NCBI GenBank assembly: GCA_018607135.1
Contig: JABBCA010000018.1
Coordinates: forward strand, 1 to 64,000
DNA: 64,000 nucleotides
Direction: 5' to 3'
DNA from: Opitutales bacterium
GTDB lineage: Bacteria; Verrucomicrobiota; Verrucomicrobiia; Opitutales; Coraliomargaritaceae
The notes below the pieces were generated by a model. It ran no database searches, was not told the origin of the DNA, and worked only from the letters and a program-made list of their open reading frames with translations. Each line of letters starts with the position of its first letter. Positions within the stretch are counted from its first letter, which is position 1. Positions 32,642 to 43,238 of this stretch are shown piece by piece. The translations under genes were made by a program, and so were the position numbers.

Positions 32642-34036
32642 ATGCCTGATTGTCCGAAATGCCGCGCTGCTTTAGCTCGTCGAAGAAATGACTTCGGTGT
32701 TTATTGGCATTGCAACGATTGCGATGGCTCTGCGGTGACGATGTCGTTGCTGCGTAAGATGATTCCGACGGAGGCAATGAACGGCTTGTGGCAGAGGGCG
32801 CGAGCGGGCTCGTATCCGCGCAAGCATCGTTGCCCAGGGTGTAAGCGTAAGATGGAGGAGATCTCGGTGGAGGCCGAGGGGCTTGAGCGGGCGATTGATG
32901 TCTGCACCTCTTGCCAATTTGTCTGGCTCGACGAGGGGGAGTGGGCGGATCTAGCCTTTTTTGCGGTCGACCAAGCCACGCCAGAAGCAATGCGCGAGGC
33001 GGTGCGCAAGCGTATCGCTCAGAAGCGCAAAGATCGCAATGCGCCGCCGATTAGCGAAGTGGTGGCGCCACCATTACCGACCGCGCAGTCCATTTCGAAA
33101 GCTGAGCCCGTTCGATCGATTGCGACGATGAAGGTTGAAAGCAGACGCACAGAACCTGCAAAACGAGTAGAGCAAGCGGCACCGCCTCTGCTGCGTCGTA
33201 AGTCAGTCGAAAGGCAAAGGCTTACACGAAGGGATTCTGGTCCTGTGGGACGACGCGAACAACGCGATCGCTTGGAAGCTAGGCAACGCCGCAAAGAATA
33301 TGACATTCCAAAGCGCAAAAGCGGTTGGGGAGAGGGCCCGAATGCGTTTTGGCAGTGGATACCCGCGCTCTTGGGAATGCCGATTGAGGATGCGCAACCG
33401 CGTGGCCCGCGACAGCATGATGACAAGCCGTGGTTTACATGGATTCTAGCGGGTGGAATCGTTTTGATCAGTTTATTGGCGATGCTTGACCTGCGGTCTG
33501 TGATCGATGCCTATGGGCTGGTGCCTGCGGAGTTTGGACGCAAAGGAGGGCTGACCTGGTTGACGGCTTTTTTCTTACATGCGGGCCTGCTGCATTTGGT
33601 GGGCAACGTGTATTTCCTCATCGTGTTTGGTGATAATGTGGAAAAGTGTCTCGGGACTTTAGAGTTTTTTCTCCTGTTGTGCTTAGCTACCTTGAGTGGG
33701 CATTTTTTCCATATTGTATTCGACCCGAATTCAACCATTCCCTGTGTGGGGGCGAGTGGGGGTATTTCAGGAGTGATGGCGTTTTACGCGCTTCGTTTTC
33801 GTCAGAATCAGTTGGCTGTGATGTTCTGGTTTTTCTTCAAGACCTATTGGTTGCGCTTGAGCGCCTTGTGGATGTTTGGCATCTGGGTGGTTTTGCAGAT
33901 GGTCATTGCTGGGCAGCAGATCGCTGGAATTAGTAAAGTCTCAGGCGCGGCGCACCTTGGAGGAGCACTTGCGGGTTGCTTTGTTTGGTTCGTTTGGCGG
34001 ATTAACCACGGGCAGCGTTATGTTCGGGATGCTTGA
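32642..34036 (+). CDS. Zinc-ribbon/rhomboid intramembrane serine protease fusion
   Basis: A 464-residue fusion. Residues 1-105 carry two TFIIB-type zinc ribbons (CPKCRAALARR...CNDCDG and CPGCKRKMEE...CTSCQFVWLDEGE). A basic, Arg/Gln-rich linker (about 130-240) follows. The C-terminal rhomboid (about 265-460) has the serine in GASGGISGVMAF, the catalytic His in AAHLGGALAG and the HAGLLHLVGNVYFL motif. It should cleave single-span proteins in the membrane, and the ribbons suggest binding of nucleic acid or a partner on the cytoplasmic side. The start MPDCPKC is unambiguous. Confidence 0.9.
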   Translation: MPDCPKCRAALARRRNDFGVYWHCNDCDGSAVTMSLLRKMIPTEAMNGLWQRARAGSYPRKHRCPGCKRKMEEISVEAEGLERAIDVCTSCQFVWLDEGEWADLAFFAVDQATPEAMREAVRKRIAQKRKDRNAPPISEVVAPPLPTAQSISKAEPVRSIATMKVESRRTEPAKRVEQAAPPLLRRKSVERQRLTRRDSGPVGRREQRDRLEARQRRKEYDIPKRKSGWGEGPNAFWQWIPALLGMPIEDAQPRGPRQHDDKPWFTWILAGGIVLISLLAMLDLRSVIDAYGLVPAEFGRKGGLTWLTAFFLHAGLLHLVGNVYFLIVFGDNVEKCLGTLEFFLLLCLATLSGHFFHIVFDPNSTIPCVGASGGISGVMAFYALRFRQNQLAVMFWFFFKTYWLRLSALWMFGIWVVLQMVIAGQQIAGISKVSGAAHLGGALAGCFVWFVWRINHGQRYVRDA

Positions 34037-34200: not shown

Positions 34201-35658
34201 ATGTATAAGACTATTGTTGTTACTGATCAGGCGAAGACACCTTCGTTGGATCTCAACGTGATTACTTTTGATCAATACCTTTCGGACTACCCTAAGCTAG
34301 GGGAACCGCGCACGCGTATTATCAATCTATGTGATACGGAGTATTATTTGAGCCGTGGATATTATTGCTCGCTGTTGGCGGAATCGCGTCAGCATCGGGT
34401 ATTGCCTAGTGTGAATACGATCAATGACCTGCGCTATCAAGATGATGCGGATGAGCGTTTGCAACCGCTCCGTCCGTTGTTGCCAAAAATTGTAGGTAAT
34501 TTGGATGAGCCAGTGGTGTTGACGATATACTTTGGTTGGGTGCCTGAAGAGGAGTGGAAGAAAGTGGCGCGGGCAATTTTTGAGCGCTACCCATCACCCA
34601 TTTTATGCGCGACACTCTCACGCGGTGAGAATGGAGTAGAGCTTCAAGTCGAGCGTGGCAATTTGTCTGCCATGAGCTCGGTAGAGCAGGCTGCATTTTA
34701 TGAGCGGTTACGTGTCTTTACCAAGCAGGTTTGGCGTAGCCCAAGCCGCCGCCAGCATCGTTGGGATATGGCGATTTTGTATAATCCTGAGGAGACAAAT
34801 GGGCCGAGCGATGCGGAGGCCATCAAGCGATTCGTCAAGGCTGCATCCAAGGTAGGGATCGAAGCGGAAGTGTTACGCTCAGATGAGCTGAAGTATGTTT
34901 CCAAATACGATGCTTTGTTTATACGCGAAACCACGAGTATCGATCATCCGACTTATCGACTGTCACGCAAAGCGGAAATGGAAGGCCTAGTGGTCATAGA
35001 TGATGCGACTTCGATCATGCGATGCTGTAATAAGATTTTTTTGCACGATGCCTTTAGTTATAATGAAGTGCAGGCGCCCGGAACTCTAGTCGTTGCGAGT
35101 AATAAAGCGCAGGAGCTAGATCGTATCGAAGCAAAGTTTAACTATCCGGTCGTGCTGAAAATGCCCGAGAGTTCATTTTCTATTGGTGTTTATAAGGTAG
35201 CGAATCGTGAGGAACTTAAGGACAAGCTAGGTATCATGCTCAAAGAGTCAGCCTTGGCGTTGGTGCAGGAGTATCTCTATACCGATTATGATTGGCGTAT
35301 TGGTGTGCTCAATGGTCGTGCGATCTATGCGTGTAAGTATTTCATGGCAAGCGATCACTGGCAGATTTATAACCATGCTTCGAATGAGGTCTCGGACGTG
35401 TCTGGAGACTCAGAGACCCTGCCTACGTTTGAGGCGCCTCGTGCGGTAATCGATGCTGCGCTGAAGGCCAGTGCTATCATTGGTAACGGCTTATACGGTG
35501 TGGACTTGAAGCAAAAAGGGGATCAAGTCTATGTGATCGAGGTCAATGACAATCCGAGTATCGATTCTACGATTGAGGATGCCTATCTTGGTGATGAGCT
35601 GTATTTGATGATTATGCAGGAATTTGTGAATCGCCTTGAGCAGCGTGGTCGTGACTAG
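34201..35658 (+). CDS. RimK-like ATP-grasp ligase with RLAN-type N-terminal domain
   Basis: A 485-residue ATP-grasp enzyme. The N-terminal ~190 residues (TIVVTDQAKTPSLDLNVITF, NLCDTEYYLSRGYYCSLLAE) form the extra domain of the so-called RLAN subfamily. The C-terminal RimK-like part has VVLKMPESSFSIGVYKV, the substrate/ATP strand VQEYLYTDYDWRIGVLNGR, and the metal-binding YVIEVNDNPSIDS. It should form an amide bond between a carboxylate and an amine, perhaps an amino acid added to a peptide; the substrate is unknown. The track start is 13 codons too early; MYKTIVVTD at 34201 is chosen. A GNAT-C39 fusion follows at once. Confidence 0.88.
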   Translation: MYKTIVVTDQAKTPSLDLNVITFDQYLSDYPKLGEPRTRIINLCDTEYYLSRGYYCSLLAESRQHRVLPSVNTINDLRYQDDADERLQPLRPLLPKIVGNLDEPVVLTIYFGWVPEEEWKKVARAIFERYPSPILCATLSRGENGVELQVERGNLSAMSSVEQAAFYERLRVFTKQVWRSPSRRQHRWDMAILYNPEETNGPSDAEAIKRFVKAASKVGIEAEVLRSDELKYVSKYDALFIRETTSIDHPTYRLSRKAEMEGLVVIDDATSIMRCCNKIFLHDAFSYNEVQAPGTLVVASNKAQELDRIEAKFNYPVVLKMPESSFSIGVYKVANREELKDKLGIMLKESALALVQEYLYTDYDWRIGVLNGRAIYACKYFMASDHWQIYNHASNEVSDVSGDSETLPTFEAPRAVIDAALKASAIIGNGLYGVDLKQKGDQVYVIEVNDNPSIDSTIEDAYLGDELYLMIMQEFVNRLEQRGRD

Positions 35659-35668
35659 TGTGTTTGGA

Positions 35669-36781
35669 ATGATGACTCTACTGAACCACAAGCTACGCGA
35701 AGTGCGCGCGGAGGATTTGGAGCCTTTGCTGTTGCTCGAATCGGTGTGCTTTGAAAGTGACCGTTTGAGTCGGCGCTCTTTTGTGCGATGGATAAAGGGC
35801 GAGAATCGAGTCTTCTTGGTGCTCGAATGTGAGGGGCAGCTGATGGGGTATGGCTTAGTGCTGCTGCATAAAGGCACACGGCTTGCGCGCTTGTATTCGA
35901 TTGCGCTCGATCCGAAAACAAGGGGGCAGGGGCTCGGTCAAAAACTAATACAGGCACTTGAGGCGGCTGCAGTGGAAGAAGACCGATTGTTCATGCGCTT
36001 GGAAGTTTCAAAGCCCAATCGTGCGGCGATTCAGTTGTATGAGCGTATGGGCTATAGTGTGTTTGGAGAGCTTCCCGATTATTATGATGACCACACCGAT
36101 GCCTTGCGTATGCAAAAACGGATTCGTTTTCCAGAGCGAGTGCGAGCGGAAGCTCAAGTGCCCTGGTATCGGCAGACGACAACATTTACTTGTGGGCCCG
36201 CATCGTTGATGATGGCGATGGCAGGACTACAGCCGACGCTGGAGCTGGACCAAAATCTAGAGCTCGATCTCTGGCGTGAAGCGACTACCATCTTCATGAC
36301 CTCTGGGCATGGTGGTTGCCATCCATTGGGCTTGGCATTGGCAGCCAATCAGCGCGGGTTTCAGGTAGAAGTTTCACTGAGTCGCACCACGACGCCGTTT
36401 TTAGAAGGGGTGCGTGCTGCGCATAAAAAAAATATTTTGGCGGTGGTGCATCATCAGTTTTTAGAGCGCACACGTGCTGAGGTGATTCCGATTCACCAAG
36501 GCTCGGTGACTGTGGCTAAAGTGGACCGTTGGTTGGAAGAAGGCTACGCCGTGCTGGTGATGATTAGCAGCTACCGAATGAATGGTGATAAAGCACCCCA
36601 TTGGGTGGTGGTCACTGCAAGTGATGAGCTTTGTTTTTATTTGCATGATCCAGACGCGGAAAAGGTGACGAACAGTGAGCTGGACTGTCAGCACATCCCA
36701 GTTGCGAAAGTCGATTTTGCGAAGATGACGAACTATGGCAGCAGCCGTTACAGCGCAGCGCTGTTGCTAAAGGCGCGATGA
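35669..36781 (+). CDS. GNAT acetyltransferase fused to a C39-like peptidase
   Basis: A fusion of about 370 residues. The N-terminal GNAT domain (about 10-145) has the acetyl-CoA loop PKTRGQGLGQKLI. The C-terminal papain-like C39 domain has the catalytic Cys in TTFTCGPASLMMAM, His in KAPHWVVVTA and Asp in YLHDPDAE. The track start is a TTG inside the ligase gene; the first ATG, at 35669, is 10 bp after the ligase stop, so translation is probably coupled. Fusion and ligase neighbour suggest a modifying and processing pair for a peptide or peptide-like metabolite. Confidence 0.88.
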   Translation: MMTLLNHKLREVRAEDLEPLLLLESVCFESDRLSRRSFVRWIKGENRVFLVLECEGQLMGYGLVLLHKGTRLARLYSIALDPKTRGQGLGQKLIQALEAAAVEEDRLFMRLEVSKPNRAAIQLYERMGYSVFGELPDYYDDHTDALRMQKRIRFPERVRAEAQVPWYRQTTTFTCGPASLMMAMAGLQPTLELDQNLELDLWREATTIFMTSGHGGCHPLGLALAANQRGFQVEVSLSRTTTPFLEGVRAAHKKNILAVVHHQFLERTRAEVIPIHQGSVTVAKVDRWLEEGYAVLVMISSYRMNGDKAPHWVVVTASDELCFYLHDPDAEKVTNSELDCQHIPVAKVDFAKMTNYGSSRYSAALLLKAR

Positions 36782-37060: not shown

Positions 37061-37843
37061 ATGAAATTTAAGTTCCTCTTGTTGCCGTTAACACTTCTCG
37101 TGCTCGTCTTTTTATCAGGTTGCCACACGGTGCCTCAAACTGGGCGCTCTGCTTTGCACCTGGTGCCTAACGATCAGCTCGCGTCGATGTCGGCCGCGCA
37201 GTTTGGTCAACTCAAGCAAGAGACTCCGATTTCGCGCGATCCGACCTACAATGCGATGGTGCGCCGAGTGGGTGAGCGAATCGCCTATGTTGCGGCGCCA
37301 GATATGCCCAATGCACAATGGGAGTTCGTGGTCTTTGAGGACGATAGCCAGATCAACGCTTTTGCGATGCCAGGTGGCAAGGTCGCAGTCTATACGGGTA
37401 TTTTTAAAGTCGCCAAGACCGAAGACGATTTAGCGATTGTGATGGGGCACGAGGTTGCGCACGTCGCGGCGGGTCATGGTAATGAACGCGTTTCGCAGCA
37501 ATTGCTGGCTGCGGGTGGTGCACTTGCCCTTCAATTCGGGACCAGCGATATGGATAGCGGTGATCGGCAATTGCTGATGGCTGCTTATGGTGCGGGCACG
37601 ACCGTCGGCGTGATTCTTCCTTATAGTCGCTATCATGAAAGTGAAGCCGATGAGATCGGATTACTCTATGCTGCCAAAGCGGGCTATGACCCGCGGGCTG
37701 CAATCGGTTTCTGGGAACGTATGGCGCAACAAAGCCAAGGAGCGCCGCCCGAGTTTTTATCGACCCACCCAGCGGGCGCGACTCGTGCGCGCAAGCTCAA
37801 CGAAATCATGCCCAAGGCGATGGAAGCGTATCGGAATCGGTAG
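37061..37843 (+). CDS. M48-family metallopeptidase lipoprotein
   Basis: A zinc metallopeptidase of about 260 residues. A signal peptide with lipobox (LLPLTLLVLVFLSGC) sends it to the envelope as a lipoprotein. The active site is HEVAH in VMGHEVAHVAAGHG and the third ligand Glu in YHESEADEIGLLY. It resembles the LoiP/BepA type that degrades or chaperones outer-membrane proteins. The track start is 20 codons upstream; MKFKFLLL at 37061 gives the correct signal. A heptamer repeat follows its stop. Confidence 0.92.
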   Translation: MKFKFLLLPLTLLVLVFLSGCHTVPQTGRSALHLVPNDQLASMSAAQFGQLKQETPISRDPTYNAMVRRVGERIAYVAAPDMPNAQWEFVVFEDDSQINAFAMPGGKVAVYTGIFKVAKTEDDLAIVMGHEVAHVAAGHGNERVSQQLLAAGGALALQFGTSDMDSGDRQLLMAAYGAGTTVGVILPYSRYHESEADEIGLLYAAKAGYDPRAAIGFWERMAQQSQGAPPEFLSTHPAGATRARKLNEIMPKAMEAYRNR

Positions 37844-38450: not shown

Positions 38451-39824
38451 ATGATAGAACCACTCGAAGCTCTTAAAGACTATATTCGCTTTTCGTCTGT
38501 ATCTACTGATCCTGCTTATGCGGATAGTATGGTCGCAGCGCGTAACTATGCGCAGGGCTTGCTGGAAGGTTTGGGCTTTCAGGTCGAAGTCGTTGATACT
38601 GAGCTGCACCCGATTCTTTATGCAGAGCGATTTGGTGACCCAGCGTGGCCACATATTGTAATCTATGGCCACTATGATGTGCAACCAGCCGATCCATTTG
38701 AGTTATGGACTTCAGCACCCTTTGAGCCCGAGGTGCGTGAGGGGCGGATTTATGGTCGTGGCGCTGCCGATAACAAAGGTCCGACGATTGTGCACATGAC
38801 TGCGTTGTCACGTGTGCTTGCGGAGCATCCAGATTTACCCTTGAACATCACTTACGTCATCGAAGGTGAAGAAGAGATCGGCAGTGAGAGTATGCCTGCA
38901 TTTTTTGATCACTATGCAGAGCGTCTGGCAAAGGCAGATTTCATCTTGGTGTCAGATACCGGCAGTCCAAATACCGAGCAAATTGTGATCACCACTGCCT
39001 TGCGTGGCTTGGTGGATTTTGAAGTGAAACTTCGAGGAGCGAAGTCGGATTTACACTCGGGTATCCATGGAGGAGCGGTGTATAATCCTATACTGGCATT
39101 AACCGAGATTTGTGCGTCTTTGCACACACCAGATGGCCGCGTGAATGTGCCAGGCTTTTATGACGATGTGTTGCCTGTGCTTGAATGGGAACGTGAAGAG
39201 TTGGCGCGTTATCCCGAAACGGAAGAGAGTTACAAGCAGATGCTCGATGTGGAGGCATTTTATCCAGCCAATGGTTTGTCGCCCTTAGAAGCGGTGCGAT
39301 TTGGTCCTACATTGGAGTTTAACGGTATCGGAGGTGGCTACCAGGGGGTAGGGTCCAAAACCGTGATCCCCAGTGAGGCTTTTGTTAAAATTACCTGTCG
39401 ATTGGTGGCGAATCAAGACCCGGTAAAAATACAAAAGCAATTGTTTGAAACCATACGCGAGCGTTGCCCCGAGGGGATTCGTTTGACCTTTCGTGATGGC
39501 GGCATCGCACCCGCGTATCTAGCCATTCCCCCAGAACGTCCGAACACTCCCGTGGATCAGCCCGAGTCCTTGGCACGAGCCTTTAAGTCGGCAGACAAGG
39601 CGATTGAATCCTCTTTCGGAACGGCACCGATTTATTTGCGAGAAGGTGGCAGTATTCCTGTGATTGCAGATTTTAACAAGCGAGCAGGCTTGGAGGCGTT
39701 GATGATCGGTTTATTTACACCTGTGGATAATTTACACGCGCCTGATGAAAGTTTCGATTTAACATTAATGGACAAGGCGATCGTCGCATTTGAGCAGATT
39801 TTTAAAGATATCGCTGGTGTATAA
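38451..39824 (+). CDS. M20-family dipeptidase/aminoacylase
   Basis: A 457-residue M20 metallopeptidase. Zinc ligands lie in VIYGHYDVQPADP, in GRGAADNKGP, in the Glu pair of VIEGEEEIGSES, and in SDTGSP. The dimerisation domain begins with LRGAKSDLHSGIHGGAVYNP. This subgroup usually cleaves dipeptides or N-acylated amino acids in the cytoplasm; no signal peptide is present. It ends exactly where the VF530-type gene begins. Confidence 0.93.
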   Translation: MIEPLEALKDYIRFSSVSTDPAYADSMVAARNYAQGLLEGLGFQVEVVDTELHPILYAERFGDPAWPHIVIYGHYDVQPADPFELWTSAPFEPEVREGRIYGRGAADNKGPTIVHMTALSRVLAEHPDLPLNITYVIEGEEEIGSESMPAFFDHYAERLAKADFILVSDTGSPNTEQIVITTALRGLVDFEVKLRGAKSDLHSGIHGGAVYNPILALTEICASLHTPDGRVNVPGFYDDVLPVLEWEREELARYPETEESYKQMLDVEAFYPANGLSPLEAVRFGPTLEFNGIGGGYQGVGSKTVIPSEAFVKITCRLVANQDPVKIQKQLFETIRERCPEGIRLTFRDGGIAPAYLAIPPERPNTPVDQPESLARAFKSADKAIESSFGTAPIYLREGGSIPVIADFNKRAGLEALMIGLFTPVDNLHAPDESFDLTLMDKAIVAFEQIFKDIAGV

Positions 39825-40073
39825 ATGACGGCTCAAGATCAACCGAACAATCCGCTGCATGGGTATACCTTGGAGCAAATTGTGATCAGTCTGTCGGATT
39901 ATTATGGATGGGACGAACTGGCGGAGCGTATCCCAGTTCGCTGCTTCATGTTTGATCCTACGGTTAAATCGAGTCTCAAGTTTTTACGTCGCACTCCATG
40001 GGCGCGTAAGAAGATCGAAGATCTGTTTGTGTATACTTTAGAGAAATACGGCGTCGAGGACGACGAGGAGTAG
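39825..40073 (+). CDS. VF530-family (DUF2132) small protein
   Basis: An 82-residue protein with all marks of the VF530 family: [52 protein letters not shown]. The fold is known from Vibrio fischeri and is thought to bind DNA, but the function is not established. It starts directly after the M20 stop and is thus translated with it. Confidence 0.9.
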
Positions 40074-40334: not shown

Positions 40335-43055
40335 TTATTGAGTGGTAACTCGCACAAAGGCTTCTTGGCCCTGAATGTAATCACTGATTCTTACCGATAC
40401 GGAGTCATTTGCGCTGCCATACACATTGAGTGGTGTTACGCTAGACCAGTCCTTTAAGTCGTTTGAAAATTCGAGAGAGTAGTCTACATCGGCGGAGTCA
40501 CGCCCTAGTGTAAACTCTATATGTAAGTCACTACCCGTAGAATTGAGTTGTGGTGCTTTTTGTGCCGCGTCGTTGGCGATTGGATTTCCGCCATAGGAGA
40601 ATTCTTCGAAGTTAAGCAGTCCATCATTATCTGGATTGTCAGTTCTGGCGGTCAGCGTTTCACCTTGCCAGTCAAAGCCACTTGCCCACGTGCTGTAAGT
40701 CACTGATGCACCGGCTGTAGTGTTAAATTCCAGCGCACGGTTTGATAGCTTTACGTCGTCGACCGTCGCATCGATTATGCCTATGGTGAGACCGTCTATA
40801 TCTTGAACGGTGCTGGGTAATTCCTCACTTGGGTAGAGCTGTGTTGCTTCTAGGGTTCCGTCTAGAAATAAACTCGCTCGATTGGTTTCGGTGTTCCATG
40901 TGAATGCGACTGTGTGCCAGTCTGAATCGGCGATGGTAGTCGTTCCCGTCAATAGGCTTTGTCCGTTCAATTTTGCAGCTAGTTGTCCATTTTGGAGTGC
41001 TAAGTAGATGCCGCTGCTCGTCGCATTGTTGAACATTCTAAAGAAGCGCTGCTGGCCGCTGATCGTGCTCATCTTAATTTTCATTTCTACGGATAAGCTG
41101 CGGTCGTTACCAAAACTAAATCCGGTCACTTGTGCCCGTCCGATGAGCCCTTCGGATTCCTTGCCGTTGAAGGTGATCTCGCCGTCAAAGATAAGATCTG
41201 CTTCGTCGACACCGTCCTCGGTGACACGGTTCTCCGCGTTGTTACCATTGGTATTGAAATTGAAATCCCAGTGAGCGGTCGCACCTGTTGGAAAAACGTG
41301 CGGTTTTAAGATCCGATACACATCATCCGCAAACATTTCAGCGCCAGCTACACCCATATGCACCGGATCTGTTGAGGGGGTGACGCCATCGGCTTGAAAG
41401 ATTAAATAGCTGTCATCGGTGAAGGTTTCAGAGCGTATCAGGTAGAGCTTTTGATCACCCGCATGGATACGTGCATTCACCACACCAGCGATCGCATCTC
41501 TGGCTTGGTCGATGGTCACCCCAGACTCGGCATCTACGGAATTACGTGAGTAGATTAATGTGTTGCAGAATACTTTGGCATTCGGTTGATGCGTGCGGAT
41601 CGTCGTTAGTAAACTTTCGTATTCCGCGGTAATTGTAGGGATGTCATGACTGGCGCCTTGCCAGTTGTTATAGCCGACAAGAATCCAGATGATATCGACC
41701 TCGCCAAAGTGCTGTAGCAGGTCGGCGGCGGGGGGAGATATTTTGGCTCCACCGACTGCCATGTTGAATATTTGAGCATTTAGCTTTTCACCAGCGATGA
41801 ACGGGTAGGTTTTATATCCAGCAGAGCCTTGCCCCGTTCCGTGTGAGATCGAGTCGCCTAAGAAGACGATTCGCTTGGGGCGAATCGGATCGGCTGCGAT
41901 GAGTGTTTCGCCAGTTTCGATGTCTACTTGGGTGAGGATCGGGTTGGACCAGGAAGGGAGTGCGATGTCGTGACGAATGACTTCAAGTGGGTCACTTAAG
42001 TTTTCTATCGTTATGATCGTCGATGCTTGTGTTCTGGAGACATAGAATTCGCGTGTGAATTCACCGTTCTGGTAGAGCGCAAACTGTGAGTCGCGGTTTT
42101 CATCACTAGGATCATAGTCAAAATGTAAGCGAATCGTAGGAGAGCTGGTGTAAAGTGTCAGCTTTGCGCCACTCGTCGTCTTCGCATTGCTTGGGCTCAT
42201 TTTCGCCACGGAGCCGTTGCTGTCGTAGATCGTATTGTTAAAGCGTAAGAAATGCATTCCTGCAGCATCGATCGTTTTAAACTGTGCCCCTTGCACATAC
42301 AGCATTGATGATGTGAGCGGGACTGTGTCGTAAGCAATAGGTGTAGGAGCCCCTGAGCCGATGCGTAGGTAGTCAATCTCAACACTGTCGGTAGCACCCC
42401 AATCTGTTGAGTTGGCATTCGAAACATAGCGTAACCGATCCCAAGTGGTTCCAGTCGCACTCAGGGCAACGGTCCCTGCAGAGCTTTCCGGTAGAGTATC
42501 GATGCTGTAGAAGACCTCTGCCTGGTCACTGTCGAGGTCGATACTGCAGCGCACGGTGAGATTGCTGAGTGTGGTGACATTGGCACCGAAATCGACGAGG
42601 TTCGAACTTACGTTATCGATACGTGTGGAGAGATAAAGCCGACCACCTTGTTTTTGTAAGCGAATGAGAAAGATATCTTGAGCCGCGACCGAATCTCGAA
42701 AGCCAAATCCTATATTTGCACCTGAGATATCGCCCGAGGATAAATCGGCAGAAGCTATCTTGAATTCAAGTTGATAGGTTCCAGTGTTGGTCGATCCAGT
42801 GGGAACCGAAAGGTTGGCAGCATCACGAAAAAAATTACTTGTATCTTGACTCGCGACTAGCAGACCCGCGCCGTTGGTGGCTGTATTTGTGGACTGGGTA
42901 AAGCTTGCCGTGCCAATGCTATTCGAAGCGGACGCGAGGTCGGTAGCTGCTGCATCATTAAACTCCCATGCTTCGAGCGGAGTGATGGCGCAGTCAGCAA
43001 AATGTGTGAATAGATGTAGGCCGCAGAGCAATAGGGTGGGTAATAACGTTTTCAT
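40335..43055 (-). CDS. Large secreted SGNH/GDSL esterase with LamG-like domain
   Basis: A secreted protein of about 906 residues. After the signal peptide (LLPTLLLCGLHLFTHFADC) come the shared WEF module (about 25-225), a beta-rich linker, and an SGNH hydrolase domain (about 380-590) with block I VFLGDSISHGTGQG, GGAK, the GYNN block and the DPVHMG catalytic Asp/His. A LamG-like domain follows (AHWDFNFNTNGNN to SNRAL), then a Ca-binding-like DNPDNDGLLNFEEFSYG and YSLEFSNDLKDW tail. Probably a carbohydrate esterase removing acyl groups from a polysaccharide. MKTLLPTL at 43055 replaces the longer track start. Confidence 0.85.
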   Translation of the reverse strand: MKTLLPTLLLCGLHLFTHFADCAITPLEAWEFNDAAATDLASASNSIGTASFTQSTNTATNGAGLLVASQDTSNFFRDAANLSVPTGSTNTGTYQLEFKIASADLSSGDISGANIGFGFRDSVAAQDIFLIRLQKQGGRLYLSTRIDNVSSNLVDFGANVTTLSNLTVRCSIDLDSDQAEVFYSIDTLPESSAGTVALSATGTTWDRLRYVSNANSTDWGATDSVEIDYLRIGSGAPTPIAYDTVPLTSSMLYVQGAQFKTIDAAGMHFLRFNNTIYDSNGSVAKMSPSNAKTTSGAKLTLYTSSPTIRLHFDYDPSDENRDSQFALYQNGEFTREFYVSRTQASTIITIENLSDPLEVIRHDIALPSWSNPILTQVDIETGETLIAADPIRPKRIVFLGDSISHGTGQGSAGYKTYPFIAGEKLNAQIFNMAVGGAKISPPAADLLQHFGEVDIIWILVGYNNWQGASHDIPTITAEYESLLTTIRTHQPNAKVFCNTLIYSRNSVDAESGVTIDQARDAIAGVVNARIHAGDQKLYLIRSETFTDDSYLIFQADGVTPSTDPVHMGVAGAEMFADDVYRILKPHVFPTGATAHWDFNFNTNGNNAENRVTEDGVDEADLIFDGEITFNGKESEGLIGRAQVTGFSFGNDRSLSVEMKIKMSTISGQQRFFRMFNNATSSGIYLALQNGQLAAKLNGQSLLTGTTTIADSDWHTVAFTWNTETNRASLFLDGTLEATQLYPSEELPSTVQDIDGLTIGIIDATVDDVKLSNRALEFNTTAGASVTYSTWASGFDWQGETLTARTDNPDNDGLLNFEEFSYGGNPIANDAAQKAPQLNSTGSDLHIEFTLGRDSADVDYSLEFSNDLKDWSSVTPLNVYGSANDSVSVRISDYIQGQEAFVRVTTQ

Positions 43056-43070
43056 ATAATTTAGGATAAT

Positions 43071-43238
43071 ATGATCATTACCGTAAATCATGCGCGTGCG
43101 AAATCGAGCCGCTTACTCATTGAATACTTTAGCGGTAAGGATGGGGTTTTGCACTCTTGGGGCGACAAGCCGTCCGACGCGTATTTCCACGTATTCGATA
43201 CTTTTCAAGGTCGATTTGTGAGCGACATCGTAAAATGA
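43071..43238 (+). CDS. Possible 55-aa ORF between divergent genes
   Basis: A short reading frame beginning MIITVNHARAKSSRLLIEYF and ending FQGRFVSDIVK. It is too short for the track but has protein-like composition, with many aromatic and charged residues. It starts 16 bp from the divergent SGNH start, so it would overlap that gene's promoter. It may be a small protein, a gene fragment or chance. Confidence 0.3.
   Translation: MIITVNHARAKSSRLLIEYFSGKDGVLHSWGDKPSDAYFHVFDTFQGRFVSDIVK

Follow-up and report, generated by a model that had tools for sequence, protein, structure and literature searches.

A recurrent pairing of RLAN ATP-grasp ligases with GNAT–C39-like fusion proteins, and its possible role in making N-acylated peptides or amino-acid amides

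Two neighbouring genes of an Opitutales bacterium (assembly GCA_018607135.1, contig JABBCA010000018.1) raise the question of whether an RLAN-containing ATP-grasp ligase and a GNAT–C39-like fusion protein work together and, if they do, what they make. The window analysed here is the whole stretch of 64,000 nucleotides that carries them. A preliminary description of this DNA placed the genes 10 bp apart, and both open reading frames were confirmed on the + strand at that spacing when the second gene is read from its ATG; an in-frame GTG at 35651 is a possible alternative start and would overlap the ligase stop. The pair comprises the following genes and domains.

34201–35658 (stop included), + strand: RLAN plus RimK-type ATP-grasp ligase, 485 aa (ORF with ATG start; Pfam)
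34270–34701, + strand: RLAN N-terminal domain (PF14401; E = 7e-36 in the genome search)
35062–35568, + strand: RimK-like ATP-grasp catalytic domain (PF08443; Pfam and invariant residues)
35669–36781, + strand: GNAT–DUF3335 (C39-like) fusion protein, 370 aa (ORF with ATG start; Pfam)
35693–36118, + strand: GNAT domain with a fold nearest to RimI/Ard1 N-alpha-acetyltransferases (Pfam; fold search)
36158–36769, + strand: DUF3335 papain-fold (C39-like) domain (E = 7e-87; conserved Q169, C175, H311 and D327)

The ligase matches the Pfam RLAN domain (E = 4e-35, amino acids 24–167) and the RimK / D-Ala ligase ATP-grasp domains (E of about 1e-9). An extra N-terminal domain of about 190 residues had been proposed, and an additional N-terminal part is present, but it measures about 180 amino acids, of which the RLAN Pfam domain takes up about 145. 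Nine residues (K278, K320, Q356, R366, D435, K437, E447, N449 and N451) show no variation in an alignment of 63 ligases, and the AlphaFold2 model is good (mean pLDDT 87.8, pTM 0.63), with LysX, ArgX, RimK and Ddl as its best matches in a fold search. The window ligase shares the ATP-grasp fold and the E-x-N-x-N-P active-site region with RimK, LysX and ArgX, but differs from them by its RLAN domain, by scores far below the family cut-offs (for example, 78.5 bits against 143.4 for NCBIfam rimK_fam, TIGR00768, which leaves it outside that family) and by the lack of a LysW partner. A separate canonical RimK with a much stronger match is also encoded in the genome, which rules out that this ligase is the ordinary RimK. 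The enzyme probably joins amino acids.

The fusion protein matches GNAT (E = 8e-17) and DUF3335, annotated 'Peptidase_C39 like' (E = 2e-86), and its AlphaFold2 model is confident (mean pLDDT 91.7). The top fold matches of the GNAT part are RimI (5isv) and Ard1 (4pv6), a likeness in fold only, as its score of 69.9 bits against the rimI profile (TIGR01575) is below the cut-off of 86.4. In the peptidase part, Q169, C175 (codon 36191–36193) and H311 (36599–36601) are invariant across 34 aligned fusion proteins, and position 327 (36647–36649) is D in 32 and E in two. These conserved catalytic residues indicate that the ligase and the GNAT–C39 enzymes are intact by sequence, as the preliminary description had held for the fusion protein.

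Its label of C39 peptidase requires more care. The window domain shares the papain-type catalytic set Q, C, H and D with C39 double-glycine peptidases, but it is a DUF3335 domain that falls outside that family, with a marginal match to PF13529, no Pfam match to PF03412 (classical C39) and neither transporter nor precursor. Thus, a C39-like Cys-His-Asp domain is present, but not a classical leader-cutting C39 enzyme. A sequence search returned no solved relative of DUF3335, and in a fold search with the whole protein, the GNAT matches masked this domain. Cleavage and transpeptidation may fit its sequence equally, and the fusion partner as a whole probably acts on the ligase product by acetylating it and either cutting or transferring it.

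Around the pair, a rhomboid protease gene ends upstream of the ligase at 34036, and genes for an M48 peptidase (37064–37843) and an M20 peptidase (38451–39824) follow downstream. Among the closest relatives of the window locus, L002 has both of these peptidase genes and L003 has M48; neither gene was seen in the other neighbourhoods listed, and they were not taken as parts of the module. The region 38451–40073 holds the M20 gene and a VF530-family gene and is probably unrelated, given that the closest relative is the only other locus where M20 adjoins the pair. Further downstream, on the − strand (40335–43091), lies a gene for a 918-aa protein with GDSL lipase and laminin-G-like domains. A promoter and terminator scan yielded no useful signal.

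The pairing of RLAN and DUF3335 is real, widespread and no accident. Among 289 Verrucomicrobiota genomes, RLAN occurs in 38, full-length DUF3335 in 10 and both in nine; among 276 gammaproteobacterial genomes, the corresponding counts are 63, 44 and 43 (Fisher tests give 4e-8 and 1e-33, respectively, and serve as guides only because the genomes are not independent). Taking the two groups together, DUF3335 is accompanied by RLAN in 52 of 54 carrier genomes, which bears out the coupling that had been proposed from the window. The dependence is one-sided, in that DUF3335 nearly always comes with RLAN and not vice versa: 29 of the 38 verrucomicrobial and 20 of the 63 gammaproteobacterial RLAN genomes, about half overall, lack full-length DUF3335. 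Most of these have RLAN with a GNAT instead, in one case fused to it, or with a stand-alone C39-like protein and GCS2, often joined by an N-formylglutamate amidohydrolase. The control genome of Methanosarcina acetivorans, which has DUF3335 and no RLAN, is an exception. Two outcomes had been named beforehand as speaking against the coupling, homologues found apart as often as together and loss of active-site residues across the family, and neither occurred.

The two genes are also usually neighbours. Gammaproteobacterial pairs are adjacent in 41 of 43 cases, with GNAT–C39 upstream on the same strand in 33, downstream in one and on the opposite strand in seven, and the order seen in the window, GNAT–C39 downstream of the ligase, is the rarer one there. 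By coordinates, seven of the nine verrucomicrobial pairs are adjacent. The genes of a pair touch or overlap (median gap −4). Haliea has a lone ligase with DUF3335 elsewhere in the genome (four of four genomes tested). Furthermore, the trees of the ligase and the fusion protein agree (r = 0.69, whereas permutations reach at most 0.25); they have 14 of 33 splits in common, and the two well-supported conflicts both concern the placing of L067/L070.

In the ligase tree, the clade of the window copy (Opitutales, Puniceicoccaceae, Coraliomargarita and Kiritimatiellota) joins Haliea, Neptunomonas and Aestuariicella with an SH-aLRT of 100. It lies inside a larger set of mostly gammaproteobacterial ligases and away from most verrucomicrobial RLAN ligases. 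This grouping with gammaproteobacterial copies makes a horizontal acquisition, together with the partner gene, probable for the window copy, and gammaproteobacteria are the simplest source.

We read 105 neighbourhoods, a selected set that gives no estimate of prevalence, and distinguished three kinds of locus. In 41, GNAT–DUF3335 accompanies RLAN (kind I), sometimes with DUF2817 and DUF155. In 27, a stand-alone C39-like protein (PF13529/PF03412) and a GCS2 carboxylate-amine ligase accompany RLAN (kind II), often with an N-formylglutamate amidohydrolase. In 21, a lone GNAT accompanies RLAN (kind III), counting L003 and L007, in which the C39 part is lost. The verrucomicrobial ligases from which the window copy stands apart are of kinds II and III. 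The remaining 16 show none of these arrangements as separate neighbours; one of them, L096, has GNAT, RLAN and ATP-grasp naturally fused in a single 653-aa protein. The C39-like types of kinds I and II are homologous across their catalytic residues (hhalign probability 95.8, E = 8e-9). As all three kinds share the RLAN ligase, this enzyme is the constant part, and its usual company consists of N-acyl-forming and amide-cleaving enzymes.

The C39 domain appears, from sequence, to be dispensable in some lineages, two near relatives of the window locus among them. In L003 (9952–10150), it is a short remnant with in-frame stops beside a ligase that is 80% identical to that of the window, and in L007 (3000–3200) it breaks off at its start, directly after an intact GNAT. 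Ligase and GNAT are both full length despite the loss. An assembly error is possible in single MAGs, yet the loss is seen twice, and kind III represents the same state more widely.

Linkage, co-occurrence, congruent trees, the L096 fusion, the exchange of GNAT for GCS2 together with a C39-like enzyme, and the predicted folds all support a joint module. Our preferred reading, to which we assign a probability of roughly 45%, is that the product of this module is a short N-acylated peptide or amino-acid amide, formed by an Ngg-like way of working. The RLAN ligase, whose fold and residues are those described above, would convert a carboxylate to an acyl phosphate with ATP and then join it to an amine. 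The RimI/Ard1-like GNAT would acetylate the product, or the amino acid itself, at its alpha-amine, and the C39-like Cys-His-Asp domain would cleave or transfer an amide bond of the precursor or product, in processing, salvage or proofreading. At sister loci, a GCS2 ligase would seemingly cap the N terminus in place of the GNAT, alongside a stand-alone C39-like enzyme and an amidohydrolase; judged from gene position, the exchange seems to swap the N-capping step. The building and capping that had been proposed for the pair fit both the lone-GNAT pairing and the L096 fusion, but trimming is the weaker part, as the C39 domain can be dispensed with.

Ngg, the closest worked-out precedent, acetylates one glutamine and ligates a second in the synthesis of N-acetylglutaminylglutamine (NAGGN) (PMC8070244). 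This GNAT–ATP-grasp fusion, which goes with AsnO (TIGR03103), resembles the window pair in the peptidase gene of its operon and in a GNAT and an ATP-grasp acting together. The window pair lies outside the Ngg family, with a TIGR03103 score of 24 bits over 60 GNAT residues (cut-off 569); that the likeness is limited to the GNAT part counts against the small-peptide reading. To our knowledge, Ngg contains neither an RLAN nor a C39-like domain. No AsnO homologue was seen adjoining the pair.

A second point against the small-peptide reading is that proteins are the targets of the RimK, LysX and RimI relatives, and a protein target is therefore kept as a real rival, if a rather doubtful one. In it, the ligase would extend a ribosomal or some other protein by amino acids, the GNAT would acetylate an N terminus and the C39-like domain would remove the tail, giving a reversible mark. 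This would suit the closest ligase relatives, which include RimK, LysX and ArgX, and the closest GNATs (RimI and Ard1), all of which act on proteins or carrier proteins. In addition, no other protein of the genome matches the rimI profile better than this GNAT, although its 72.7 bits fall short of the cut-off of 86.4. However, the genome has its separate, much stronger RimK, the clusters examined show no recurrent ribosomal gene next to the pair, and the GCS2 ligase and N-formylglutamate amidohydrolase of the sister loci are small-molecule enzymes.

Graspetide loci, which hold both ATP-grasp ligases and C39 peptidases (PMC8939145), provide a model for a RiPP pathway in which a ribosomal precursor would receive amide links from the ligase and have its leader cut by the C39-like domain. 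The preliminary description reported no precursor gene within 1 kb, which was confirmed and extended: no conserved small ORF was found within ±3 kb of the ligase across about 100 loci, the widest small-ORF cluster comprising three related loci. The survey of neighbourhoods that it proposed, for a conserved short precursor or a transporter, found that neither recurs beside the pair, C39-ABC transporters included, which leaves leader or double-glycine processing unsupported. Given also that the C39 domain can be lost, we consider a RiPP pathway very improbable. The best structural matches of the ligase, LysX and ArgX, would instead suggest intermediates built on a small carrier protein of the LysW type, but a search of the genome gave no LysW match where control genomes did score, and the same dearth of conserved small ORFs near the ligase applies; we regard this as exceedingly unlikely.

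It is unlikely, too, that the module salvages or detoxifies unusual peptides or amino acids through C39-like hydrolysis, GNAT acetylation and recycling by the ligase. Extra hydrolases do cluster with it, namely DUF2817, with weak AstE/AspA similarity, and FGase, but these vary, whereas the constant part is an ATP-using ligase. Turning back to the small-peptide reading, a bolder form of it, which we think a good deal less probable, would make the RLAN ligase the fixed core of an unrecognised family of N-capped peptide metabolites with an exchangeable cap, an acetyl group where a GNAT is present and gamma-glutamyl or the like where GCS2 takes its place. The papain-fold domain would then be a transpeptidase, lengthening or exchanging the capped peptide. 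Phytochelatin synthase, which carries out papain-fold transpeptidation with glutathione, offers a comparison.

The Pfam entry for RLAN describes the RLAN/GNAT–papain-like neighbourhood, including GCS2 and M20 peptidases. This neighbourhood was reportedly described in 2009 by Iyer, Abhiman, Burroughs and Aravind (Mol Biosyst 5:1636). Its domains (PF14401, PF11814) are those of the window pair, which belongs to the RLAN-ligase/GNAT–DUF3335 system by its RLAN domain fused to a RimK-like ATP-grasp, its adjacent GNAT–DUF3335 gene and its intact catalytic residues. A 2023 paper, which cites Iyer et al. 2009, notes frequent fusions of DUF3335 to GNAT domains and suggests that the latter may serve as peptide ligases or in acetylation (PMC10318531). 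The pairing is thus not new and had already been predicted, and the literature searched yielded no paper on the biochemistry of the pair. The counted one-sided co-occurrence, the loss of C39 and the probable horizontal origin of the window copy come from the present analysis. RLAN occurs in about one-fifth of the sampled gammaproteobacterial and one-eighth of the sampled Verrucomicrobiota genomes, and the papers searched give no product for it; should its product be a small peptide, this would be a common metabolite as yet without a name. From the exchange of GNAT for GCS2 comes a testable clue to the N terminus of the product.

Several other genes lie beside these loci. A DUF155 (RMND1-like) gene adjoins the pair in several gammaproteobacteria (L024:6968–7762, L025, L128, L130 and L144), and a DUF2817 gene, with weak similarity to AstE/AspA deacylases, sits beside or between the two genes in L018–L025, L128 and L143. 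A 2OG-Fe(II) oxygenase gene follows the ligase in some Haliea loci (L011:9452–10123) and has a homologue in a Bacteriovorax locus (L026:2675–3292). One kind II locus (L031:2173–7878) is found immediately downstream of a gene cluster for Alpha-E, circularly permuted ATP-grasp and transglutaminase proteins, which we take to be a second predicted peptide-synthesis system.
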